NCBI GenBank assembly: GCA_009772935.1
Contig: WOUR01000014.1
Location: 62,001 to 126,000 of the forward strand
Reading direction: 5' to 3'
DNA: 64,000 nucleotides
Origin: Rhodospirillaceae bacterium
Lineage (GTDB): Bacteria; Pseudomonadota; Alphaproteobacteria; Reyranellales; Reyranellaceae
This document shows positions 4,192 through 12,198 of this stretch, in pieces. The stretch's first letter is position 1, and each line of letters opens with the position of its first letter. The notes under the pieces are model-generated. The model ran no database searches. It saw nothing but the letters and a program-made list of their open reading frames with translations, and was not told where the DNA came from. Made by a program: the position numbers and the translations under genes.

Positions 4192-5046
4192 CTAACCTTT
4201 CGTTGCCGCGATCTTCTCCAGCACCGGCAGGATGTACTCCCGGAACCTGGCCGGGTTCTCGCTCATGGGGAAATGGCCCAGTTCGGTCATGACCTGCACC
4301 TGTGCGCCGGGGATCTGGGCGGCCGTGCGCAGCGTGTCCTCGGCGGTGCAGGAGAAGTCGTACTCGCCGGTCAGCAGGTAGAGCGGGCAGACGCTCGTGT
4401 CGATCGACTTCACCTTCTCGCGCAGGTCTCCGTCGACGCGGTAGAAATACAGGTCGCCTTTGAAGATGCCGGGGCCGCCCTGCATGTACATCCACAGCGT
4501 TTCGTGGCGGCTCACCGACGGACCTTGCGGCGCGATCAGGCCCGAGATCAGCGCGGCGCAGACTTCGCCGCCATGGACGTCGGGACGGTGCAGCCAGGCC
4601 GTGTCGTACCAGGGCTGCTGGAAGTCGGCGGCTTCGAGTGCCACGAGGGCACGGAATTCGGCGGCATGGGCGATCGCGAGATTGAGCACGATGCGGCCGC
4701 CGATGGAGCAGCCCATCACCACGGGCCGGTCGAGTTCCAGGGCCTGGCAGAAGGCGCGGATGGTGGCAGTGTAGGAGGCGGTGGTCAGGCGATACTCCGT
4801 CTTTTCCCAGCCGTCGGGCGGGGTCGACTTGCCGTGCCAGGGCATGTCGAACGCGATCACGCGGAAGCGGTTCGTGATCTCGGGATCGGCCAGGAGGTGA
4901 CGGAACTGGCGACCGTCGGCGCCCGCCGTATGCAGGCAGACCAGCGGAATGCCCTGTCCCGCCTCCTCGAAGTAGAGGCGATGCGGCGTGCCGTCGATGT
5001 CGAGCCGCACGTAGCGGCCCACCATAGGGTCGAGAACGGGCGCCAT
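4192..5046 (-). CDS. Alpha/beta hydrolase
   Basis: A 284-residue alpha/beta hydrolase fold enzyme. The nucleophile elbow GCSIGG carries the candidate catalytic Ser, a TGEYDF segment supplies the likely acid and ELGHFPM the histidine near the C-terminus. There is no signal peptide. The ATG at 5046 is preferred over an upstream in-frame ATG because the extra residues derive from the displaced end of the neighbouring gene and the element junction. Before the island inserted, this start lay one base after the stop of the SCP2-like gene, so it was the third gene of an operon now interrupted by about 6 kb. Substrate unknown; an esterase or meta-cleavage-type hydrolase is likely. Confidence 0.85.
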   Translation of the reverse strand: MAPVLDPMVGRYVRLDIDGTPHRLYFEEAGQGIPLVCLHTAGADGRQFRHLLADPEITNRFRVIAFDMPWHGKSTPPDGWEKTEYRLTTASYTATIRAFCQALELDRPVVMGCSIGGRIVLNLAIAHAAEFRALVALEAADFQQPWYDTAWLHRPDVHGGEVCAALISGLIAPQGPSVSRHETLWMYMQGGPGIFKGDLYFYRVDGDLREKVKSIDTSVCPLYLLTGEYDFSCTAEDTLRTAAQIPGAQVQVMTELGHFPMSENPARFREYILPVLEKIAATKG

Positions 5047-5047
5047 C

Positions 5048-5094
5048 TCAGCGGGCCTCCGGCAGGCGGCGCGGCTGCGCCAACAGGTCCTTGA
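5048..5094 (-). pseudogene. Displaced native 3' end of the SCP2-like gene
   Basis: Read on the minus strand this stretch encodes KDLLAQPRRLPEAR followed by TGA, one base before the hydrolase ATG. The SCP2-like gene on the far side of the island now ends in the similar tail KDLLALPRKLQ. Joining the two junctions at the shared GTCCTTGA restores an open reading frame, so this is the cut-off original 3' end of that gene. Confidence 0.8.
5087..5094. other. attL core (left island junction)
   Basis: GTCCTTGA, identical to the right junction at 11153-11160. To its left is chromosomal coding sequence; to its right is the integrase leader. On the minus strand it covers the Phe-Lys-Asp codons of the target gene. 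Confidence 0.75.
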
Positions 5095-5199
5095 TTTGTT
5101 GTAAGTGGCCTTTACGCAGCTTTCCATTGCTTTTCATAACCACACGCCTTTCAATTAAATCAATGCGTTAGTCGCCGTTTACATTTGTTGTAAGTTGCC
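5094..5199. promoter_or_regulatory. Two direct repeats next to attL, candidate integrase arm sites
   Basis: ATTTGTTGTAAGTGGCC at 5094-5110 is repeated as ATTTGTTGTAAGTTGCC at 5183-5199 (16 of 17 identical, 89 bp apart). Both lie between the attL core and the integrase start, the usual position for integrase arm-type binding sites. A weaker resemblance (TTTGTTATTAAGTG) occurs at 11102-11115 near attR. Confidence 0.55.
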
Positions 5200-5231
5200 G
5201 TAGCTTTAGCCCGCGTTGTTACGGGGTGTTT

Positions 5232-6431
5232 ATGCCAAAGCTGACAAAGAGCTTCGTTGATAAGGTTGCGGCGCCCACCAGCGGGGACGCATTCCACTGG
5301 GACTCGGATATCAAAGGTTTCGGTTTGCGGGTGAACGCGGCCGGGAAGAGCTTCGTGGTACAGGGGCGAATCGGCAGCGGTCGTAGCGCACCGGCGGCGC
5401 GGCTCACTATCGGCCCCTATGGGCCTTTTTCGCCCGACCAAGCCCGCGATGTTGCCCGCGAGCACCTGCGCAACATGCGCATGGGTATCGACCCCCGAGC
5501 CGCTTCTAGAGCATCTGCTGTGCAGCGGCGCACGCTCCGCGAGGTGGCGGACGACTATATGCGGGACATCCCCCTGAAGGCCACGAGCAAGCGAGCCATC
5601 ACGCAGGCCGTCAGCGCTACGTTCAGTGAAATTGGTTGGACGGACAAGCCCCTCGCCAACATCACAAGGGCCATGGTGGATGAGAGCTTCCTTAAGATGC
5701 GCGAGCGGGCGCCCGGTCATGCAAACCACGCTTTCGGTATCCTCCGAGCGTTGTTCAACTACGCGACTCGTCAGTACACCAACGACGACAAATCACCGAT
5801 CTTCACTGACAACCCGACCAAAATCCTCCACCGGAAGTGGGCAAAACTCAAGCCCCGCACCGGCCGCATAGATGACGAAAAGCTCGGCGCGGTATGGGCG
5901 CATCTAGTGGCCGCGCGTCAGACGGCCCACAACGGTCACACCCGGTCGTCTATCGATCTAGTCACCTTCCTGCTCCTCACCGGCGCGCGCATGTCGGAGG
6001 CGACAAAGCTTACTTGGGAGCGCGTGGACCTGGAGAAGGGGACATGGCACCTGCCGGACCTGAAGAACGGCAACAAGGTGTGGTTGCCCCTATCGAGCCA
6101 GGCGATTGAGCTGCTGCGTAGTCGCCAGCAGCTCGGCATCAACAGCCCCTATGTCTTTCCCTCCTGGGACGGGCACATCAAAGACCCGCGAGACGCGATG
6201 AAGAATCTTAGCGCAGTCGCGGGATGCAAGCTCACGCCACACGACCTGAGACGCACGTTTACCCATGTTGGCGCATGGCTCTGCCAGATCGATATTCAGC
6301 GCGTAGAGTTATTGACGAATCACATTCCGACCTCGGTGACCGCTCGCCACTACCTTGAGACTGAACGCCTCGAATATCTGAAGCCAGAAGTGCAGCGGAT
6401 TGCCGATCGGATAGTAGGAGATGCAGCATGA
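5232..6431 (+). CDS. Tyrosine-type site-specific integrase (P4-like, DUF4102 N-terminus)
   Basis: Catalyses integration and excision of the surrounding island. It has 399 residues. An N-terminal arm-DNA-binding domain (about 1-90, with FHWDSDIKGFGLRV) precedes the SAM-like core-binding domain and a C-terminal catalytic domain. The catalytic set is visible: Arg253 (TGARMSE), His337 and Arg340 (PHDLRRTF), His364 (LTNHIP) and nucleophile Tyr374 (ARHYLE). ATG 5232 was preferred over an in-frame GTG two codons upstream because MPKLTKSFVDK matches the family N-terminus. The stop overlaps the next gene by four bases (ATGA). Confidence 0.93.
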   Translation: MPKLTKSFVDKVAAPTSGDAFHWDSDIKGFGLRVNAAGKSFVVQGRIGSGRSAPAARLTIGPYGPFSPDQARDVAREHLRNMRMGIDPRAASRASAVQRRTLREVADDYMRDIPLKATSKRAITQAVSATFSEIGWTDKPLANITRAMVDESFLKMRERAPGHANHAFGILRALFNYATRQYTNDDKSPIFTDNPTKILHRKWAKLKPRTGRIDDEKLGAVWAHLVAARQTAHNGHTRSSIDLVTFLLLTGARMSEATKLTWERVDLEKGTWHLPDLKNGNKVWLPLSSQAIELLRSRQQLGINSPYVFPSWDGHIKDPRDAMKNLSAVAGCKLTPHDLRRTFTHVGAWLCQIDIQRVELLTNHIPTSVTARHYLETERLEYLKPEVQRIADRIVGDAA

Positions 6432-6628
6432 TTGGACGCGTCACTCTGGCTTGTATCGTTGTTATCCTGATGACCGCGCCCGCCAGCGCTAACAACCGCA
6501 AGGTTGTTCGAGATCAGTATGGCAGGCAGGTCGGGACTATCACGCGAGACCCGGTCCTCAAGGACCGCGAAGTCATTCGTGACAACTACGGTCGGCAGAA
6601 GGGTACCATCACGAAGGATAAGAGGTAG
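6428..6628 (+). CDS. Small predicted secreted protein with two YGR-x2-GTIT repeats
   Basis: A 66-residue protein of unknown function. Residues 1-21 form a signal peptide (hydrophobic core, then APASA). The mature part consists of two near-identical repeats, VVRDQYGRQVGTIT and VIRDNYGRQKGTIT, separated by a short linker, and ends in lysines and arginine. The start codon overlaps the integrase stop (ATGA), so it is probably translated together with the integrase. The repeats resemble the D-x2-G-R-x2-G units seen in many short phage or secreted proteins, but no function can be assigned. Confidence 0.7.
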   Translation: MIGRVTLACIVVILMTAPASANNRKVVRDQYGRQVGTITRDPVLKDREVIRDNYGRQKGTITKDKR

Positions 6629-6650
6629 GCACTTATCGATCGGTAAGTGC
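6629..6650 (+). terminator. Hairpin after the integrase unit
   Basis: GCACTTA (6629-6635) and TAAGTGC (6644-6650) form a perfect 7-bp stem starting right after the stop of the small secreted protein gene. The following GGTTTAG is a poor T tract, so termination may be weak. Confidence 0.4.
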
Positions 6651-6771
6651 GGTTTAGAAAGTGCTTGCTAGATGTACTGTTAGTTGCGTACAGTTATGCC
6701 ATCCCGCAATTGATGCGGAAACCCTCGGGCCGGATTGAGTGAAACGCGGCGTTAGCCGGAGTTTTACCGTA

Positions 6772-6999
6772 ATGGCCACATCAACCTCCGATGTGCTGAC
6801 AAGCGATCAAGTCGCCAGCATGCTTGGCATCAAGCGCAACACCCTCGAAATCTGGCGTTGCAAGGGCAGAGGCCCGTGCTTCGTCAAACTCGGTACTGCC
6901 AAGCAGGCCGGGGTCGTCTACGCACGCTCTGACGTCGAAGCGTGGGTTGCCGCGCGAAAATACCCCAGCACCTCCGCCTATTCCGCCAAAGGCAACTAA
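6772..6999 (+). CDS. AlpA/MerR-like helix-turn-helix protein (possible excisionase or regulator)
   Basis: A 75-residue protein with the DNA-binding pattern LTSDQVASMLGIKRNTLEIW followed by a KGRGPCFVKLG wing and a SDVEAWVAARKY helix, as in AlpA and excisionase-like HTH_17 proteins. In P4-type islands such proteins control integrase expression or excision. ATG 6772 was chosen over an upstream in-frame GTG because the protein then starts just before the HTH. It lies between the integrase and the RepA-like gene on the same strand; an ACTGT-N9-ACAGT inverted repeat sits about 80 bp upstream. Confidence 0.8.
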   Translation: MATSTSDVLTSDQVASMLGIKRNTLEIWRCKGRGPCFVKLGTAKQAGVVYARSDVEAWVAARKYPSTSAYSAKGN

Positions 7000-7111
7000 T
7001 ACGCCTTTGCAACGGCGGGCATTTCCCAATCAAGAAAAGCGGCCGGAGGTGGCTCTCCTCCGACCGCAAGTCGATGTCATTGCAAACAGTCAAAGACAGG
7101 AGAACCTCTCA

Positions 7112-8473
7112 GTGACCACACAACCTATACGGCGGTCCCTTGCGACATCACAACGGCTAATTGTGCCAGCCCTGTTTCTGTCAGGGCCAAGGCCGGTGGG
7201 TTTTGCTGGCGGTCCCGTACTACCCCCACCGCCGCCCGCAAATTCGCCCGCTGGGGCCGCTGCGGGGCCCGCTAGCACCGATTCCCAAGGTGGCCCCGGC
7301 AACGGTAGCACCGGGATCCCATCGTCCGGGATTCAGTGGCTAGCCTACGTGGACCTCCTCAAGAAACTCGAACAAACTGCCATACAGACCGACCCCCTTC
7401 GGAACCCGGTCCGAGCGGAAATAGCTTGGATGAAGACCAGAACGCTCGGTCGACCGTGTATCGTCGAAGGAATGTATTTTCGGGACGTGGGGCACATCGT
7501 TGCTCCGGGCGGGGTCGGCAAGACGACCCTGCTCCTCCATCACTGCATCCAGATCGTGACCGGCGGCAGCATTTTTGGCCGCGAGGTCCGGATGGCCGGT
7601 CCGGTCGTCTACATCAGCGCCGAGGACGATTCAGATTCGTTGGGCGCTCGCTTATGGCAGATGTGCAAGGATATCGATTCGAAGGACGATCTCGAGGCGA
7701 TTGAGAAAAACCTTCATATCATCGACACGGCGGGCCACAGCGTGAAGCTGACTACGGTCGAGAAGGAAGCGGTAGTCCCGAGCCGCCGACTCGACACCCT
7801 GATAGCCACGCTACAGCAGATCGATCCGGTGATGGTGTTCATCGATCCACTGGTATCATTCGGCATCGGCGAGAGCAGGGTTAACGACGCAGAACAGGGC
7901 ATGATTGAGGCTGGACGTCGCATTGTGAAGCAAGTCGGCTGCGGCGTGCTATTCGTTCATCACACTGGCAAGTCGAATGTTCGAGAAGGGGACGGCAAGC
8001 AATACTCTGGGCGCGGCGGCAGCGCCTTGGCAGACGGCTCCCGGATGGTCTTCACGCTTGAAAACGTGCCGCCCGACAAATGGCAGGAAGCAACAGGCGA
8101 TGCTCTAATAGATGGCGAGTCGGCTTTGCTGTTCTCCAGCCCCAAGCTGACATGGTGCTCGCCTCAGCCGCCGATCTATCTCAAGAGAACCGGCTTCGCG
8201 TTTCTCGAATTTCCCTATGTTGGTGGGACCGAAGGCGCACAGGATCGCGCCATTGCCGATGCCGAGAAGCTCCATGCATTCTTGAAAGCCGAACTGCTCG
8301 CCGGAAGGCACCACACAGGCAGGAGCCTTGAGGATATTGGCTTCATGAAACAGAAGTCGCTGCGTAGCGCCATCCATACCTTGAAAGACCAAGGCCGGAC
8401 CGTAGACGAGAAAGAGGAGGGCGGCGGTCGAGGTGGCGCGCGGACATGGTTGCGTCCCGTCGACCGGACGTAG
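7112..8473 (+). CDS. RepA-like AAA ATPase (AAA_25, hexameric helicase type)
   Basis: A predicted replicative helicase or ATPase, 453 residues. A Pro/Ala/Gly-rich N-terminal linker (about 25-70) is followed by Walker A APGGVGKTTLL (131-141), the ISAEDD motif (169-174), Walker B VMVFIDPLVSF (241-251) and a HHTGKSN...RGGSALADGSR segment (284-312) typical of RSF1010 RepA-like proteins. The C-terminus looks like a small winged-helix domain. The GTG at 7112 follows AGGAGA with good spacing and was chosen; the frame is open upstream but there overlaps the HTH gene. An iteron-like region follows directly, consistent with a role in element replication. Confidence 0.85.
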   Translation: MTTQPIRRSLATSQRLIVPALFLSGPRPVGFAGGPVLPPPPPANSPAGAAAGPASTDSQGGPGNGSTGIPSSGIQWLAYVDLLKKLEQTAIQTDPLRNPVRAEIAWMKTRTLGRPCIVEGMYFRDVGHIVAPGGVGKTTLLLHHCIQIVTGGSIFGREVRMAGPVVYISAEDDSDSLGARLWQMCKDIDSKDDLEAIEKNLHIIDTAGHSVKLTTVEKEAVVPSRRLDTLIATLQQIDPVMVFIDPLVSFGIGESRVNDAEQGMIEAGRRIVKQVGCGVLFVHHTGKSNVREGDGKQYSGRGGSALADGSRMVFTLENVPPDKWQEATGDALIDGESALLFSSPKLTWCSPQPPIYLKRTGFAFLEFPYVGGTEGAQDRAIADAEKLHAFLKAELLAGRHHTGRSLEDIGFMKQKSLRSAIHTLKDQGRTVDEKEEGGGRGGARTWLRPVDRT

Positions 8474-8824
8474 TGACCACAGTGTCTGAGGCCGTCCTGA
8501 ACTGTTTTGGTGCGTTGGTGCGTTTTGCTGCGTTTGTCTGCGTTAACGCACCAAGTATCAGATGCAGCTACACGCGGCGTTTTTGCCGCGTTGCTGCGTT
8601 ACTGCTTAGGGATACGCAGCAAAAGCAACGCACCAAACTCGTAGCTTAATTCAGCTAGGCTGGCGGTTTTGGTGCGTTGCCGCAGGTTGTCCAATCACTG
8701 TGGCCACAACCGGTCGAGACAGAATCGCCGTCGATGCTGACGGCAACTTTTTACAAATTTCGCTGGTGGACCTTCGCACTGATCACCCATGCTTTTCGGG
8801 TAAACAATTTACGAGATCAAACCC
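8474..8824. other. Non-coding iteron-like region, candidate replication origin of the island
   Basis: A 351-bp stretch without a convincing gene. The unit TGCGTT/AACGCA occurs at least eight times between 8511 and 8678, in both orientations. The longer form TTTTGGTGCGTTG is at 8505-8517 and 8667-8679, and its inverse is at 8625-8637 (GCAACGCACCAAA) and in part at 8545-8554. An outer imperfect inverted repeat TGACCACAGTG (8474-8484) / CACTGTGGCCA (8696-8706) flanks the block. AGTGACCACA also occurs at 7111-7120 over the RepA start. Clustered repeats beside a RepA-like helicase suggest an origin. Confidence 0.55.
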
Positions 8825-9529
8825 ATGCCCTCCGATATCGACACCCGCGTTACACCGTCTCTCCATCCTCTGAACGTTCAGGAGATCGACGGGTATGACA
8901 AATCGACCGCCCCATATCTGGCCGCCACTGATACGGCATTCAGTGCGGCCTACGAGGGACTTCTCGCAGTGCATGACGCGCGCACCGTGGCAAACAAAAA
9001 CCCCGCCTGGAATGAGGAGCAGCGCATCGTCCAGGTCAGTAAGTTTGCCGAGAAGAAGCTCGATCAGATCACGCGAGGACTGGACAAGGCGCGCGGCGAC
9101 CTGCTGAAGAACATCGAGCAGGTCGAAAGGGAACTCACGGCACCGATCGAGGCGAAGGCTGTGGGAAATCTGGCTGCCGAAATTCGCGCGCACGTGAAAG
9201 GGCTGCCTACGGCTGAGCGGCACGCCTTCGTGATGGAAGCGGTCAACGGGCTCGATAGCGTCACTGTGGGCGCGTTGCTTGGCGCACCGGCCTATCTGTC
9301 CGGTGTCAGCGTCGAGATGCAGAAGGTCTACCTGCGCCAGTACCGAGGCGTGATGGCGCCGGAATTGTCGCTCCGCCTCAAGGCGATGCAGAACGCCGTT
9401 GCGATGATCGACGAGCGTGGCCGTCTGGTCTTTGCGGAGATGGAAAAGGCGGTCGGCGCACCGCCGAATAGAGCCGCTGCTCTGAGGAAAGCTCACGAGG
9501 CCGCAAGCAAAGCGCTGGAGCTGACCTAA
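8825..9529 (+). CDS. Hypothetical alpha-helical protein of the island
   Basis: A 234-residue protein with no recognised domain. It is rich in Ala, Glu and Lys and predicted mainly helical, with a likely coiled-coil stretch around residues 65-115 (KFAEKKLDQITRGLDKARGD and following). No signal peptide or membrane segment. Its stop overlaps the start of the DUF5681 gene (TAATG), so the two are translationally coupled. Position after the presumed origin and before a DUF5681 gene suggests an element or phage-related function, but none can be named. Confidence 0.75.
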   Translation: MPSDIDTRVTPSLHPLNVQEIDGYDKSTAPYLAATDTAFSAAYEGLLAVHDARTVANKNPAWNEEQRIVQVSKFAEKKLDQITRGLDKARGDLLKNIEQVERELTAPIEAKAVGNLAAEIRAHVKGLPTAERHAFVMEAVNGLDSVTVGALLGAPAYLSGVSVEMQKVYLRQYRGVMAPELSLRLKAMQNAVAMIDERGRLVFAEMEKAVGAPPNRAAALRKAHEAASKALELT

Positions 9530-10071
9530 TGCTCGCCGAAAAACCTGAAAAAAGCATGATCGATCAGGATCGATCCGGCCACCTCCCGACAGAGTGCGAA
9601 TCCCCATCATACCCCCCGGAGGTATCTACCGCGGCTGTCACCATCGTAGAAGGAGCGGGCCCGGGCAATCCGAAGTGGGTCAAGGGGATGAAGAGCCCGA
9701 ACCCCGCAGGGCGTCCCCCAGGTATCAAGGAGCGCAAGGCTAAGATCCACGAGCGAATGCTAGATCAGGCCGGTGCCGTCATCGACGTCATGCTGCAGAA
9801 GGCACTGGAAGGTGATTCCGCTGCTGCCGCACTCGTGGTTAACCGCGTGCTGCCTGTCCTTCGCCCACAGTCAGAGAAGGTGTCCTTCACGCTCGACGTG
9901 GACCAGCCCATTTCGAAGCAGGTGGAGCAAGTTCTTGCGGCAGTCGCCAAGGGTGATGTCGCGCCGGACGTAGGGAAGAAGATCGTGGAGACGGTGCAGG
10001 CACTGGGCAACGTCCGCACCATTGAGGATCTGGAGCAACGTATCGCTGCACTGGAAGGGAAGCGGATATGA
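9529..10071 (+). CDS. DUF5681-containing protein
   Basis: A 180-residue protein. The NPKWVKGMKSPNPAGRPPG segment (about 46-64) carries the NPxGRPxG motif that defines DUF5681, found in proteins of phages and integrative elements, often near packaging genes. The rest is helical with a C-terminal coiled-coil-like end (TIEDLEQRIAALEGK). The ATG at 9529 overlaps the previous stop; an in-frame ATG at 9556 is an alternative. The next gene overlaps by four bases (ATGA). A DNA-binding, small-terminase-like role is possible but not shown. Confidence 0.75.
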   Translation: MLAEKPEKSMIDQDRSGHLPTECESPSYPPEVSTAAVTIVEGAGPGNPKWVKGMKSPNPAGRPPGIKERKAKIHERMLDQAGAVIDVMLQKALEGDSAAAALVVNRVLPVLRPQSEKVSFTLDVDQPISKQVEQVLAAVAKGDVAPDVGKKIVETVQALGNVRTIEDLEQRIAALEGKRI

Positions 10072-10265
10072 CAAGAGAAGAAGCCCGCCAGCTAATCGTC
10101 GGCAGCATGTTGGAGGTCATGCGTGATTGCATCGACCCGACCTATCGCGCCGCCGCTTATGAGGTGCTGGTATCAGTCTTGCCAAGCGAGTTGAAGCCCA
10201 GTTGCTGGTCGACCAGCGGATGGGACCGTCGCCATTTCATGCCCGGGCAATGGGAGACACAGTGA
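10068..10265 (+). CDS. Small hypothetical protein of the island
   Basis: A 65-residue protein without recognised domain. The N-terminal half (TREEARQLIVGSMLEVMRDC) is probably helical. It overlaps the DUF5681 gene by four bases and its stop overlaps the next ATG by one base (TGATG), so it is part of a tightly coupled string of small genes. This arrangement is the main evidence that it is translated. Confidence 0.55.
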   Translation: MTREEARQLIVGSMLEVMRDCIDPTYRAAAYEVLVSVLPSELKPSCWSTSGWDRRHFMPGQWETQ

Positions 10266-10492
10266 TGAACGCAGACGGAAACAACCTTCCCCTAGAAGAG
10301 CGACGCAGGCTCCGCATCGAGAAGGAACGTCGAGACTCTGCCGAGATGCGCGAGGGCGTGCAGCGCGCGACTCGGGATACGGCGCTGATGCGTAAGGCAG
10401 TGGACGAAGCGGCGTTCGTGGTGGCGCTCAATACGCTGCGTAGGGCCCAAGAGGAGGGCAAGCTGCCACCTGCAGTCGTTTCCGGGGCCTAG
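10265..10492 (+). CDS. Small hypothetical protein, charged helical N-terminus
   Basis: A 75-residue protein beginning MNADGNNLPLEERRRL, with a highly charged Arg/Glu-rich segment (about 10-35) that is likely a long helix or coiled coil. The frame is open from 10202, but the ATG at 10265 overlaps the preceding stop (TGATG) and avoids a large overlap. No family recognised. The next ATG follows two bases after its stop. Confidence 0.55.
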   Translation: MNADGNNLPLEERRRLRIEKERRDSAEMREGVQRATRDTALMRKAVDEAAFVVALNTLRRAQEEGKLPPAVVSGA

Positions 10493-10494
10493 AC

Positions 10495-10710
10495 ATGGGG
10501 ATCGGCGTCCTGCGTAACCGCCTTCGCGCACTCGAGGCCAAGATCACGGCGAGCCAGCACATTGCCGAGTTCGTAGATAGGTTTGAGGCCGAGGCGACAC
10601 TGGGAATAGTGGAGGGCCGCTACTGCCCGAGCGACATGCCCGACATTGTCACCTGCTTCCGCAAGTGGGTTCGCGACGGCGTCGTCTTCAAGGTGCAGAG
10701 AGGCACCTAG
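10495..10710 (+). CDS. Small hypothetical protein of the island
   Basis: A 71-residue protein starting MGIGVLRNRLRALEAKITAS, a likely coiled-coil helix. A central CPSDMPDIVTCF segment and a basic end follow. No family recognised. It is the last gene of the coupled rightward string 8825-10710 and converges with the leftward 93-residue gene. Confidence 0.55.
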   Translation: MGIGVLRNRLRALEAKITASQHIAEFVDRFEAEATLGIVEGRYCPSDMPDIVTCFRKWVRDGVVFKVQRGT

Positions 10711-10722
10711 TCGGCGTGATCG

Positions 10723-11004
10723 CTACTCAGTCGTCAGCGGAGAGCACTTCTTGCAGAGCTTGGAGAACGCTCTTGCGCCGGCCTTGCGCTCCAGCTCCGC
10801 AAGAAGCTCGTCTATCGAGTCCGAGCAGAATTTTGAGTAACTTGGCCCCGTGAAGGGGCGTTTGAGAAACTCGCAACTGACTTTGTGCAAAACGAGATAT
10901 TTTCGCCGAGGCTTGCTGTCAGCATTGACCACAAATCCGCGTTCGTGGGCCTTGCACCAATTCGTGTAGCCATCGTCGTCGTCTTTGAACCATATCGCGG
11001 TCAT
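10723..11004 (-). CDS. Small protein with conserved W-DY-GFVVN-LHxxxC-CxxC pattern (unnamed domain)
   Basis: A 93-residue protein, opposite in strand to the other island cargo and next to attR. It starts MTAIWFKDDDDGYTNWC, then GFVVN, then YLVLHKVSCEFL, then YSKFCSDSIDELL, and ends with CKKC. A W...GY..W...GfVlN...LHra.C...C..s...L...C..C layout recurs in small bacterial proteins, from my memory of such sequences, but I do not know a domain name or function. The His and Cys positions could bind zinc. A function as cargo, possibly defence or regulation, is speculation. Confidence 0.7.
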   Translation of the reverse strand: MTAIWFKDDDDGYTNWCKAHERGFVVNADSKPRRKYLVLHKVSCEFLKRPFTGPSYSKFCSDSIDELLAELERKAGARAFSKLCKKCSPLTTE

Positions 11005-11122
11005 GCGATGGATCTAGAGTGATCAGCAGGCTCGTTGGCAATCACTAGTTGGTGACGATACAAACGACCGTGCTTACGGGGTGCAATTTCGCCCCTAGCT
11101 CTTTGTTATTAAGTGATTGTTA

Positions 11123-11497
11123 TTATTGCAATTTTCTCGGTAAGGCAAGCAAGTCCTTGAAGTACTGCAGGTTCTGCAGCAGCGGACGCAGATCGCCTTC
11201 GAGCGACGCGGCGCCGCGCTTGGTCAGCGCGAACAGGTCGTGCCAGCCCGGCTCGGGCATCTTCTTCCAGTGCTGCTGCCATGCCTCATCTGTGCCGCGC
11301 ACGGTGAAGGCGGTGGAGCGCATCAATTTCGGGCCGCGGTCGAAGGCGGAGAGGGCGCCCTCGACGATCGTCAGGTGGAAGGGCTCGCCGCCGATGTCGA
11401 TCCTGCACTCGACGCTCACCCAGCGGCCGCGCCGCAGCAGGTCGGTATCGTCGGAGAGGAGGTCGGGCAGCTTCGCGAAACAATCTGCAGGGGTCAT
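11123..11497 (-). CDS. SCP2-like (sterol-carrier-fold) protein with island-encoded C-terminal tail
   Basis: A 124-residue protein resembling SCP2-type lipid-binding domains (GGEPFHLTIVEGALSAF, DEAWQQHWKKMPEPG, LEGDLRPLLQNLQYFKDLL); ligand unknown. The ATG at 11497 overlaps the stop of the upstream DUF6134 gene (ATGA), so the two form an operon. The last nine codons (LLALPRKLQ) lie inside the island: its insertion replaced the native tail LLAQPRRLPEAR, still present at 5048-5094, with a similar one. The protein therefore probably remains functional. The alpha/beta hydrolase at 4192-5046 was originally the next gene. Confidence 0.75.
   Translation of the reverse strand: MTPADCFAKLPDLLSDDTDLLRRGRWVSVECRIDIGGEPFHLTIVEGALSAFDRGPKLMRSTAFTVRGTDEAWQQHWKKMPEPGWHDLFALTKRGAASLEGDLRPLLQNLQYFKDLLALPRKLQ
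11153..11160. other. attR core (right island junction)
   Basis: GTCCTTGA, identical to the left core. To its right the chromosomal SCP2-like gene continues; to its left the island supplies nine codons plus a stop in the same reading frame. Confidence 0.75.
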
Positions 11498-12198
11498 TCC
11501 TGCAGTATGTACTCGATCGTCGACCCGTCGGAAGCCTTGAAAGCGGCCTTCACCCAGCGGCCGCGATCGTCGAACCACTGATCCATCTCGACGTCGCCGG
11601 TATAGGAATAGCGCGTCGCCTGCAGGGTGCCATTGGCCGTCTTGACCGTCTCTCGACCCCGCGGCGTGATCTGGATCTTGGCGAGCGCGCCGTTCTGGGT
11701 GTTGAGAATCGCCGACTGCTTCACCTGGTTCAGGTTCCAGTGGGTCGACGGTATGACCCCCGGGGGAAGGGTCTCCTGGCGGGTGCTGCCTTGCTGGAAG
11801 CCGACATCGTTGGCCGTGAGCTTGGGCGCGCTACCGCCATCGCGGACGACAGCGACGCCCCCAGGCTGCTGCCGGGCCTTCACGGCATACTTGGTGCCGT
11901 TGTCGTCGGTCTGGGTCGCAATCGACTCGAACGTGTTGCCGTTCCAGACCTCCTGGCCGCGATGCAGGTAGCGATACATGGTCAGGCCAAGCACCTTGAC
12001 CGAGAAGTCGATCGAGGTCGTCACGACCCGCTTGTCGCCATTCTGCTGGAAGGTGAGGGTGTGCGTGCCGATCCGTTCGCCGTTGCGGAACGCCGCAAAA
12101 ACGTGGCTTTGCCCATACGGTAGATCCTGTGCCGCCAGCGCTCCTGCCGAGCTGCAGCATCCCACCGTCATCAATATCAGCAGTAGACGTCGCATCAT
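11494..12198 (-). CDS. DUF6134-like periplasmic protein
   Basis: A 234-residue protein with a signal peptide (hydrophobic residues 5-22, ending near ALAAQ). The mature part is beta-rich (YGQSHVFAAFRNGERIGTHT, then alternating strands; QWFDDRGRWVKAAFKASDG near the end) and resembles DUF6134/DUF3108-type proteins of alphaproteobacteria, thought to lie in the periplasm; function unknown. It is the first gene of the operon that continues with the SCP2-like gene. A perfect -10 TATAAT lies 18 bp upstream of its start. Confidence 0.8.
   Translation of the reverse strand: MMRRLLLILMTVGCCSSAGALAAQDLPYGQSHVFAAFRNGERIGTHTLTFQQNGDKRVVTTSIDFSVKVLGLTMYRYLHRGQEVWNGNTFESIATQTDDNGTKYAVKARQQPGGVAVVRDGGSAPKLTANDVGFQQGSTRQETLPPGVIPSTHWNLNQVKQSAILNTQNGALAKIQITPRGRETVKTANGTLQATRYSYTGDVEMDQWFDDRGRWVKAAFKASDGSTIEYILQE

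Follow-up and report, generated by a model that had tools for sequence, protein, structure and literature searches.

The 64,000-nucleotide stretch of a Rhodospirillaceae draft genome analysed here (hereafter the window; contig WOUR01000014.1, positions 62,001 to 126,000) carries a 6,066-bp integrative island at 5088-11153, delimited from its junctions and assigned to no strand, which was very probably inserted by its own tyrosine integrase into the last codons of a conserved protein gene, and whose attachment site supplies that gene with a replacement C-terminal tail at one end and places an outward-facing start codon at the other. We favor this reading because relatives hold the empty site, the tail is a diverged mimic of the native protein end, the layout of the attachment (att) sites is conserved, this codon is also occupied by islands in other genomes, and a second gene, ppk2, contains a closely related island. 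At the level of sequence, we regard it as firm that the coding end of the target gene is restored by the element-encoded tail, and the resulting chimeric proteins may be made and functional.

Interrupted and uninterrupted target loci

We compared the target gene across a genus set of 65 genomes, among them that of the window (G000, a 6.0-Mb draft in 124 contigs, with the window on contig G000:C104), and 60 of these hold a full or nearly full copy. In relatives, a DUF6134 gene, the 124-amino-acid target gene and an alpha/beta hydrolase gene form a tight operon, and the island in the window separates the second of these genes from the third. All three lie on the minus strand: the DUF6134 gene, first of the operon, at 11494-12198 (Pfam DUF6134, E 2.6e-51), the target gene at 11123-11497, of which 11497-11154 is host sequence and 11153-11123 island sequence, and the hydrolase, last of the split operon, at 4192-5046 (Pfam Abhydrolase_1, E 1.3e-18) with its ATG at 5046. 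A preliminary description of this DNA had expected island-free relatives to show an empty site within an operon of this order. The empty site is there, as the hydrolase directly follows the target gene in 54 of the 60 orthologues, starting 11-21 nt past the match end, but the operon order is less uniform than supposed, with DUF6134 directly upstream in only 21 of the 29 loci tested. All 54 uninterrupted orthologues, on which the native 3'-end comparisons below rest, read KD[LV]LALPR. The open frame anticipated across the join was found as well, since the flanks of the window, when joined at the core, give a single frame ..YFKDLLAQPRRLPEAR-stop that ends LLAQPRRLPEAR-stop, and the hydrolase coding sequence is whole, in agreement with the suggestion that the island splits the operon while leaving its second gene intact.

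The name 'SCP2-like', which the same description had given to the target gene, found no support, and the gene is best called uncharacterised. The target protein had no match in Pfam or NCBIfam, a PDB profile search with it returned nothing convincing (best E 1.3), and its single-sequence structure model was poor (predicted local distance difference test score, pLDDT, of 48). None of nine target homologues matched an SCP2 profile, and three of them gave a weak VinK_C match (best E 0.0082).

The repeat described for the two ends of the island, the core GTCCTTGA, is present at 5087-5094 and 11153-11160, one copy per island end, and both reading ends are as originally described. Each island end is ambiguous within this 7-8 bp core, TCAAGGA[C], and a crossover just 3' of TCAAGGA is compatible with the junctions of the window and of two related islands, in G022 and G051 (ends read by eye). 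Because the core occurs seven times in the window, against 1.35 expected, the repeat alone is no proof of an island, and we dropped it as stand-alone evidence; comparison with relatives decides. Six of the 60 orthologues are interrupted, namely those of the window, G051 (by about 33 kb), G018 (3.2 kb), G060 (2.1 kb), G036 (1.6 kb) and G057 (0.64 kb). Other genomes have inserts at this site too: those of G051 (..LLALPRKLQ-stop), G018 (..LLALPRKVQ-stop) and G060 (..LLALPRKATLQ-stop) interrupt the same codon and bear similar tails, and the G051 integrase is 69% identical to that of the window.

A replacement tail that mimics the protein, not the DNA

On the minus strand, the target gene (11497-11123) reads through the junction and ends ..YFKDLLALPRKLQ-stop, in which LLALPRKLQ-stop comes from the island. 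Within LLALPR, this replacement tail (11123-11153, minus strand; (GA)C TTG CTT GCC TTA CCG AGA AAA TTG CAA TAA) departs from the commonest native codons at 7 of 18 bases, every change being silent, and only 19 of 400,000 random variants with seven differences, scored for retained LLALPR, kept the peptide. The codons TTG, CTT and TTA are found at those positions in none of the 54 native genes, and AGA in one. The tails of G051 and G018 show four and five differences in the same stretch, again all silent. Since identity ends at the core and the divergence beyond it is entirely synonymous, we read the tail as a mimic and not as a simple duplication, which, together with the empty sites and the islands at the same codon, upholds the original proposal that an island entered a protein gene at its 3' end and brought a diverged tail of its own.

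The displaced native 3' end, at 5048-5087 on the minus strand, reads ..DLLAQPRRLPEAR-stop and terminates one base before the hydrolase ATG. It has drifted to LLAQPRR, with an L-to-Q change seen in 0 of 54 native genes, versus the LALPR kept in all 54, in keeping with a fragment no longer under selection. Displaced ends are altered in G018 and G036 too; that of G051 retains LLALPRRL.

Architecture of the attachment sites

Architecturally, both island ends carry a candidate arm-type integrase site. Within the 64 kb of the window, the motif CACCCCGTAA has just two occurrences (0.01 expected), on the minus strand both times and once near each island end, at 5219-5228 beside the integrase and at 11074-11083 at the distal end, the latter 70 bp from the crossover. 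In five of six islands, the single best distal match to a 14-nt form of this motif has a distance to the crossover of exactly 70 bp, with scores of 14 of 14 in G000 and G018, 13 in G022, 11 in G038 and 10 in G051. The integrase ends of G000, G022, G038 and G051 carry the motif at nearly one offset (scores of 12, 12, 11 and 13), and it is missing from that end in G018. For comparison, the background, 86,360 positions on a single strand of five loci, contained no match of 11 of 14, and 0.03% of its positions reached 10. Beside the core, a 17-nt direct repeat (ATTTGTTGTAAGTGGCC; 5094-5110, plus strand) has a second copy (94%) 89 bp inward, at 5183-5199, and its first 13 nt occur twice in the window, with 0.00 expected. 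An integrase with arm-binding and catalytic domains adjoins one att site, and we infer that the paired CACCCCGTAA motifs are its arm sites; together with the 17-nt repeat, they look like the arm and accessory sites of an integrase.

A shift of site to ppk2 and other integrase relatives

The closest relative of the window integrase, at 89% identity, belongs to G022 and lies inside ppk2, after codon 27. We read 30 ppk2 loci, and the 29 outside G022 have a native-type start, with close relatives reading MGKWPRLDKIEMIDGPIDKQSYERQIK/KLQ.. (here and below a slash marks a junction). In G022, the gene instead reads MATSIKLNIGHLQQIK/ELQDRL.., its first 16 residues coming from the integrase end of the island and the predicted Ppk2 of 260 amino acids beginning MATSIKL, and the cut-off native start, on another contig, reads MGKWPRLDKIEMIDGPIDKQSYEHQIK/NLLALPRKIQQ-stop (..EHQIK/NLLALPRKIQQ) and continues into island sequence. 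Both junctions were thus recovered, the host flanks are colinear with uninterrupted ppk2 loci, and the home target gene of G022 is uninterrupted (locus L011). Taken together, the two junctions place the tail mimic where the interrupted gene has no need of it, while the other island end gives ppk2 a new start.

A third protein-gene target was found in G038, where an integrase 59% identical to that of the window splits a gene for a helix-turn-helix (HTH) protein at ATC-TGC-GA. One pattern, [AT]TC-NNN-[GA]A, with one codon phase, fits all three targets, the 'SCP2-like' gene, ppk2 and the HTH-protein gene, which makes specificity look like that of a short motif and not of this gene alone. The earlier suggestion that the integrase recognises a conserved coding site in the target gene was therefore right as far as it went, but incomplete, given the relatives in ppk2 (89%) and in the HTH-protein gene (59%).

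Evolutionarily, the integrases form two sister pairs, G000 with G022 (94/96) and G051 with G038 (96/95), with a relative associated with tRNA-Lys outside them. The simplest reading would be that the 'SCP2-like' site is ancestral to these four islands and was left twice, four islands being few for such a reconstruction. The outside relative, in G087, is 44.6% identical to the window integrase and belongs to an 8-kb block that has tRNA-Lys(CTT) on one side and, on the other, at least 45 bp of the tRNA 3' part as a repeat. Six short loci scanned with ARAGORN gave no tRNA. The complete tRNA-Lys of G087 turned up further away, and in G122 and G240 only 3' tRNA-like fragments were read, by eye. We considered that GTCCTTG matches the T-arm of the tRNA-Lys used by the G087 relative, but dropped this match because, with respect to the integrase, it falls on the opposite strand.

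At E <= 0.001, 49 of the 65 genus genomes hold integrase matches, mostly distant, and four, including that of the window, are close. Across the class, a search of 385 drawn genomes, with at most four candidates scored per genome, returned the window integrase and three more distant ones at E <= 1e-50. The 33 pattern matches on viral contigs included no relative, and the 208 of 72,556 plasmid records that matched were all below 60% identity.

Proposed mechanism and competing explanations

We propose that the 6.07-kb island entered the conserved gene in its final codons, at TTC-AAG-GA^C, through its own tyrosine integrase. The attachment site of the free element (attP) would comprise an integrase half, the core and a distal half, all inside one short frame, and on integration the distal half would become the replacement C-terminus of the target gene, while the integrase half would set an ATG in frame ahead of the displaced native end. 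Joining the island ends at the crossover indeed gives one short open frame in the window, MKSNGKLRKGHLQQIK.DLLALPRKLQ-stop, and MATSIKLNIGHLQQIK.DLLALPRKIQQ-stop in G022. The junction of an excised circle would read ..HLQQIKDLLALPRKLQ.., and the island may still be able to excise.

In the integrated state, the outward leader forms an open reading frame (ORF) of MKSNGKLRKGHLQQIK/DLLAQPRRLPEAR-stop (5048-5137, minus strand), which starts at an island ATG at 5137, stays in frame across the core and stops, as the displaced end does, just short of the hydrolase. A GAAAGG lies at 5152-5147, 9 nt before the ATG, and the leader may be translated. Neither this outward start codon nor the paired arm motifs figured in the preliminary description. 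Sequences like GGAG, GAGG or AGGA occur in 41 of the 54 native 3' ends and might serve the hydrolase as a ribosome site of its own, in which case it may have no need of the leader.

Several observations weigh against the proposal or parts of it. The leader ATG of G051 is one base out of frame, from which it follows that an in-frame leader is dispensable at the home site, the G038 leader has no in-frame ATG, and a promoter and terminator scan of 5000-5400 found no sigma-70-like promoter and no terminator. The insertion in G038 is moreover without repair, in that its distal end gives ..ICDVGSGPQFM-stop, and the sole codon at which the remainder of the split gene could begin anew is a GTG. G060 carries the tail, yet its arm motif matches at only 3 of 14 positions at 70 bp. 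G018 has its integrase matches on contigs other than that of the insert, and no match was obtained in G060 or G036, so the inserts in these three genomes may be remnants or other events. Finally, a closely related integrase (E <= 1e-40) is present in just 4 of the 76 genomes from the order, that of the window included, so the island family rests on few cases.

Of the alternatives, the strongest is an ordinary 3'-end integration in which only the tail matters, with the leader an unselected and untranslated by-product of the core-side repeat, and the ppk2 insertion a secondary-site accident whose frame arose by chance. The leader codons for GHLQQI coincide with one copy of the 17-nt direct repeat, the leader failures in G051 and G038 are what such a reading would lead one to expect, and an in-frame fit has a chance of 1 in 3. 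On the other hand, the window and G022 agree in the ATG, the 9-nt GAAAGG spacing and the frame even though 6 of 16 leader residues differ, and three host genes are cut on the same strand and in the same codon phase, which has a chance of about 1 in 36 given the first, on a post hoc count. We see this alternative as evenly balanced between being true and false. A simple duplication of the target end at insertion, followed by drift, would account for the 8-bp core shared in frame by both ends, but is very improbable, because identity stops at the core, the bases beyond it differ silently and include three codons unseen in native genes, a similar tail accompanies the island in ppk2, and the distal junction in G022 argues strongly against duplication. 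An assembly artefact or unrelated rearrangement might be suspected in a draft of 124 contigs, but is just as hard to credit when one contig spans both junctions, other genomes have same-site insertions with a similar tail, the arm motifs are paired and both halves of the ppk2 split were recovered.

Returning to integrase-driven insertion with repair, a bolder version would see attP as a selected two-way translational adaptor, that is, a mini-gene of 26-27 codons with its own start and stop that the integrase cuts mid-way. Given the out-of-frame ATG in G051, the missing in-frame ATG in G038 and the missing promoter, we put this forward only tentatively and think it the less likely case. If true, one island could provide a new C-terminus where a gene is cut at the 3' end, or a new N-terminus where the cut is near the 5' end. 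The integrase could then switch from one protein gene to another without destroying either, and translation would continue on both sides of a split operon.

Relation to known integrative elements

Replacement sequences in attP are usual for tRNA and protein-gene targets, icd among them (PMC10111431), and attP replacement for either end of a gene is already known. As in icd-type protein-gene islands, a target-derived attP would keep the recombinant gene functional, next to a tyrosine integrase and a short identity core; unlike those islands, ours uses another target gene and combines 7-8 bp of identity with a synonymous mimic in place of a long identity block (PMC10111431). Islands specific for dusA replace the 5' end of their target and have relatives in the non-cognate genes dusB, rluA and abgT, with a potential alternative 5' end provided in dusB (PMC4482086). 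New 5' ends and non-cognate sites are shared with the present family, which differs in mending the 3' end of its home gene, with a new 5' end coming from the same cassette at the shifted site in ppk2. Salmonella genomic island 1 (SGI1), which is mobilised by IncA/IncC plasmids (PMC8409611), likewise has the 3' end of a protein gene, thdF (trmE), as its primary site and a secondary site elsewhere, but that second site is intergenic, unlike the site inside ppk2 (PMC2297512). The G087 island resembles that of the window in its related integrase and in having the 3' part of the target at both ends, and differs in its tRNA target and repeat of at least 45 bp, against a protein gene and a 7-8 bp core.

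New to us are the target gene, the tail that mimics the protein next to a core of 7-8 bp, and what seems to be one att cassette serving opposite ends of two genes. The titles and abstract openings listed in searches of open-licence PubMed Central full text contained no island in this target gene and no single attP serving opposite gene ends, which is not proof of absence. We see the case as bearing on how integrases change targets without disabling host genes: a close pair of islands, with integrases 89% identical, occupies two protein genes, the second still bearing the tail of the first, and a single att cassette on opposite ends of two genes is directly testable.

Island genes and other inserts at the site

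Functionally, the island encodes a 399-amino-acid tyrosine integrase (5232-6431, plus strand; Arm-DNA-bind_3, E 8.8e-13; Phage_integrase, E 6.8e-15), in which R253, H337, R340, H364 and Y374, presumably the catalytic set, are invariant across four homologues. Further along the plus strand follow a 75-amino-acid AlpA/Xis-like HTH protein that is a candidate excisionase (6772-6999; HTH_17, E 7.7e-10; phrog_66, 'excisionase and transcriptional regulator', E 2.3e-9), an AAA_25 and DnaB- or primase-like ATPase of uncertain start (7112-8473; AAA_25, E 3.6e-31; primase/helicase PHROGs) and a DUF5681 protein (9529-10071; E 2.1e-7). Integrase, AlpA-like HTH protein and AAA_25/primase-like ATPase occur together, genes that are also looked for in phage satellites resembling phage-inducible chromosomal islands (PICIs), which are small elements mobilised by a helper phage. 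The remaining content is small ORFs. One of 234 amino acids (8825-9529) has no PHROG or PADLOC match and only a sub-threshold Pfam match (E 0.047), and another of 93 amino acids (10723-11004), which adjoins the distal att end, has no PHROG or PADLOC match and no Pfam match above the cut-off; an apparent homologue of the latter stands at the same place in G022 (locus L141), as judged by eye. PADLOC gave no defence match among the five proteins of the window island scanned.

The same target site also hosts defence-type cargo, which makes it a spot to look for more. The 33-kb island of G051 (locus L164, G051:C45:4500-18000) carries an Hma defence system, with HmaA, HmaB and HmaC at 1,569.6, 1,128.2 and 803.7 bits. 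The 3.2-kb insert of G018 (L036:15380-18061) encodes a methyltransferase of the type I/II kind and a second gene without a PADLOC match, which we take to be a specificity subunit. The distal arm motif and the mimic tail are present in this insert, no related integrase was found there, and it may be what is left of an island, or else an element that was mobilised in trans.

The inserts of G057 (locus L132) and G036 (locus L038) each have one metabolic-looking ORF between the target gene and the hydrolase, which we assume to be PlsY-like in the former and a Rieske oxygenase in the latter. As the mimic tail is missing from both, neither was counted in the island family, and the spot between the two genes seems to accept insertions of several kinds. 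In G047 (L039:1-101), a second, partial 3' end of the target gene is followed by a 68%-identical hydrolase and the contig edge, and an intact operon is also present in that genome.

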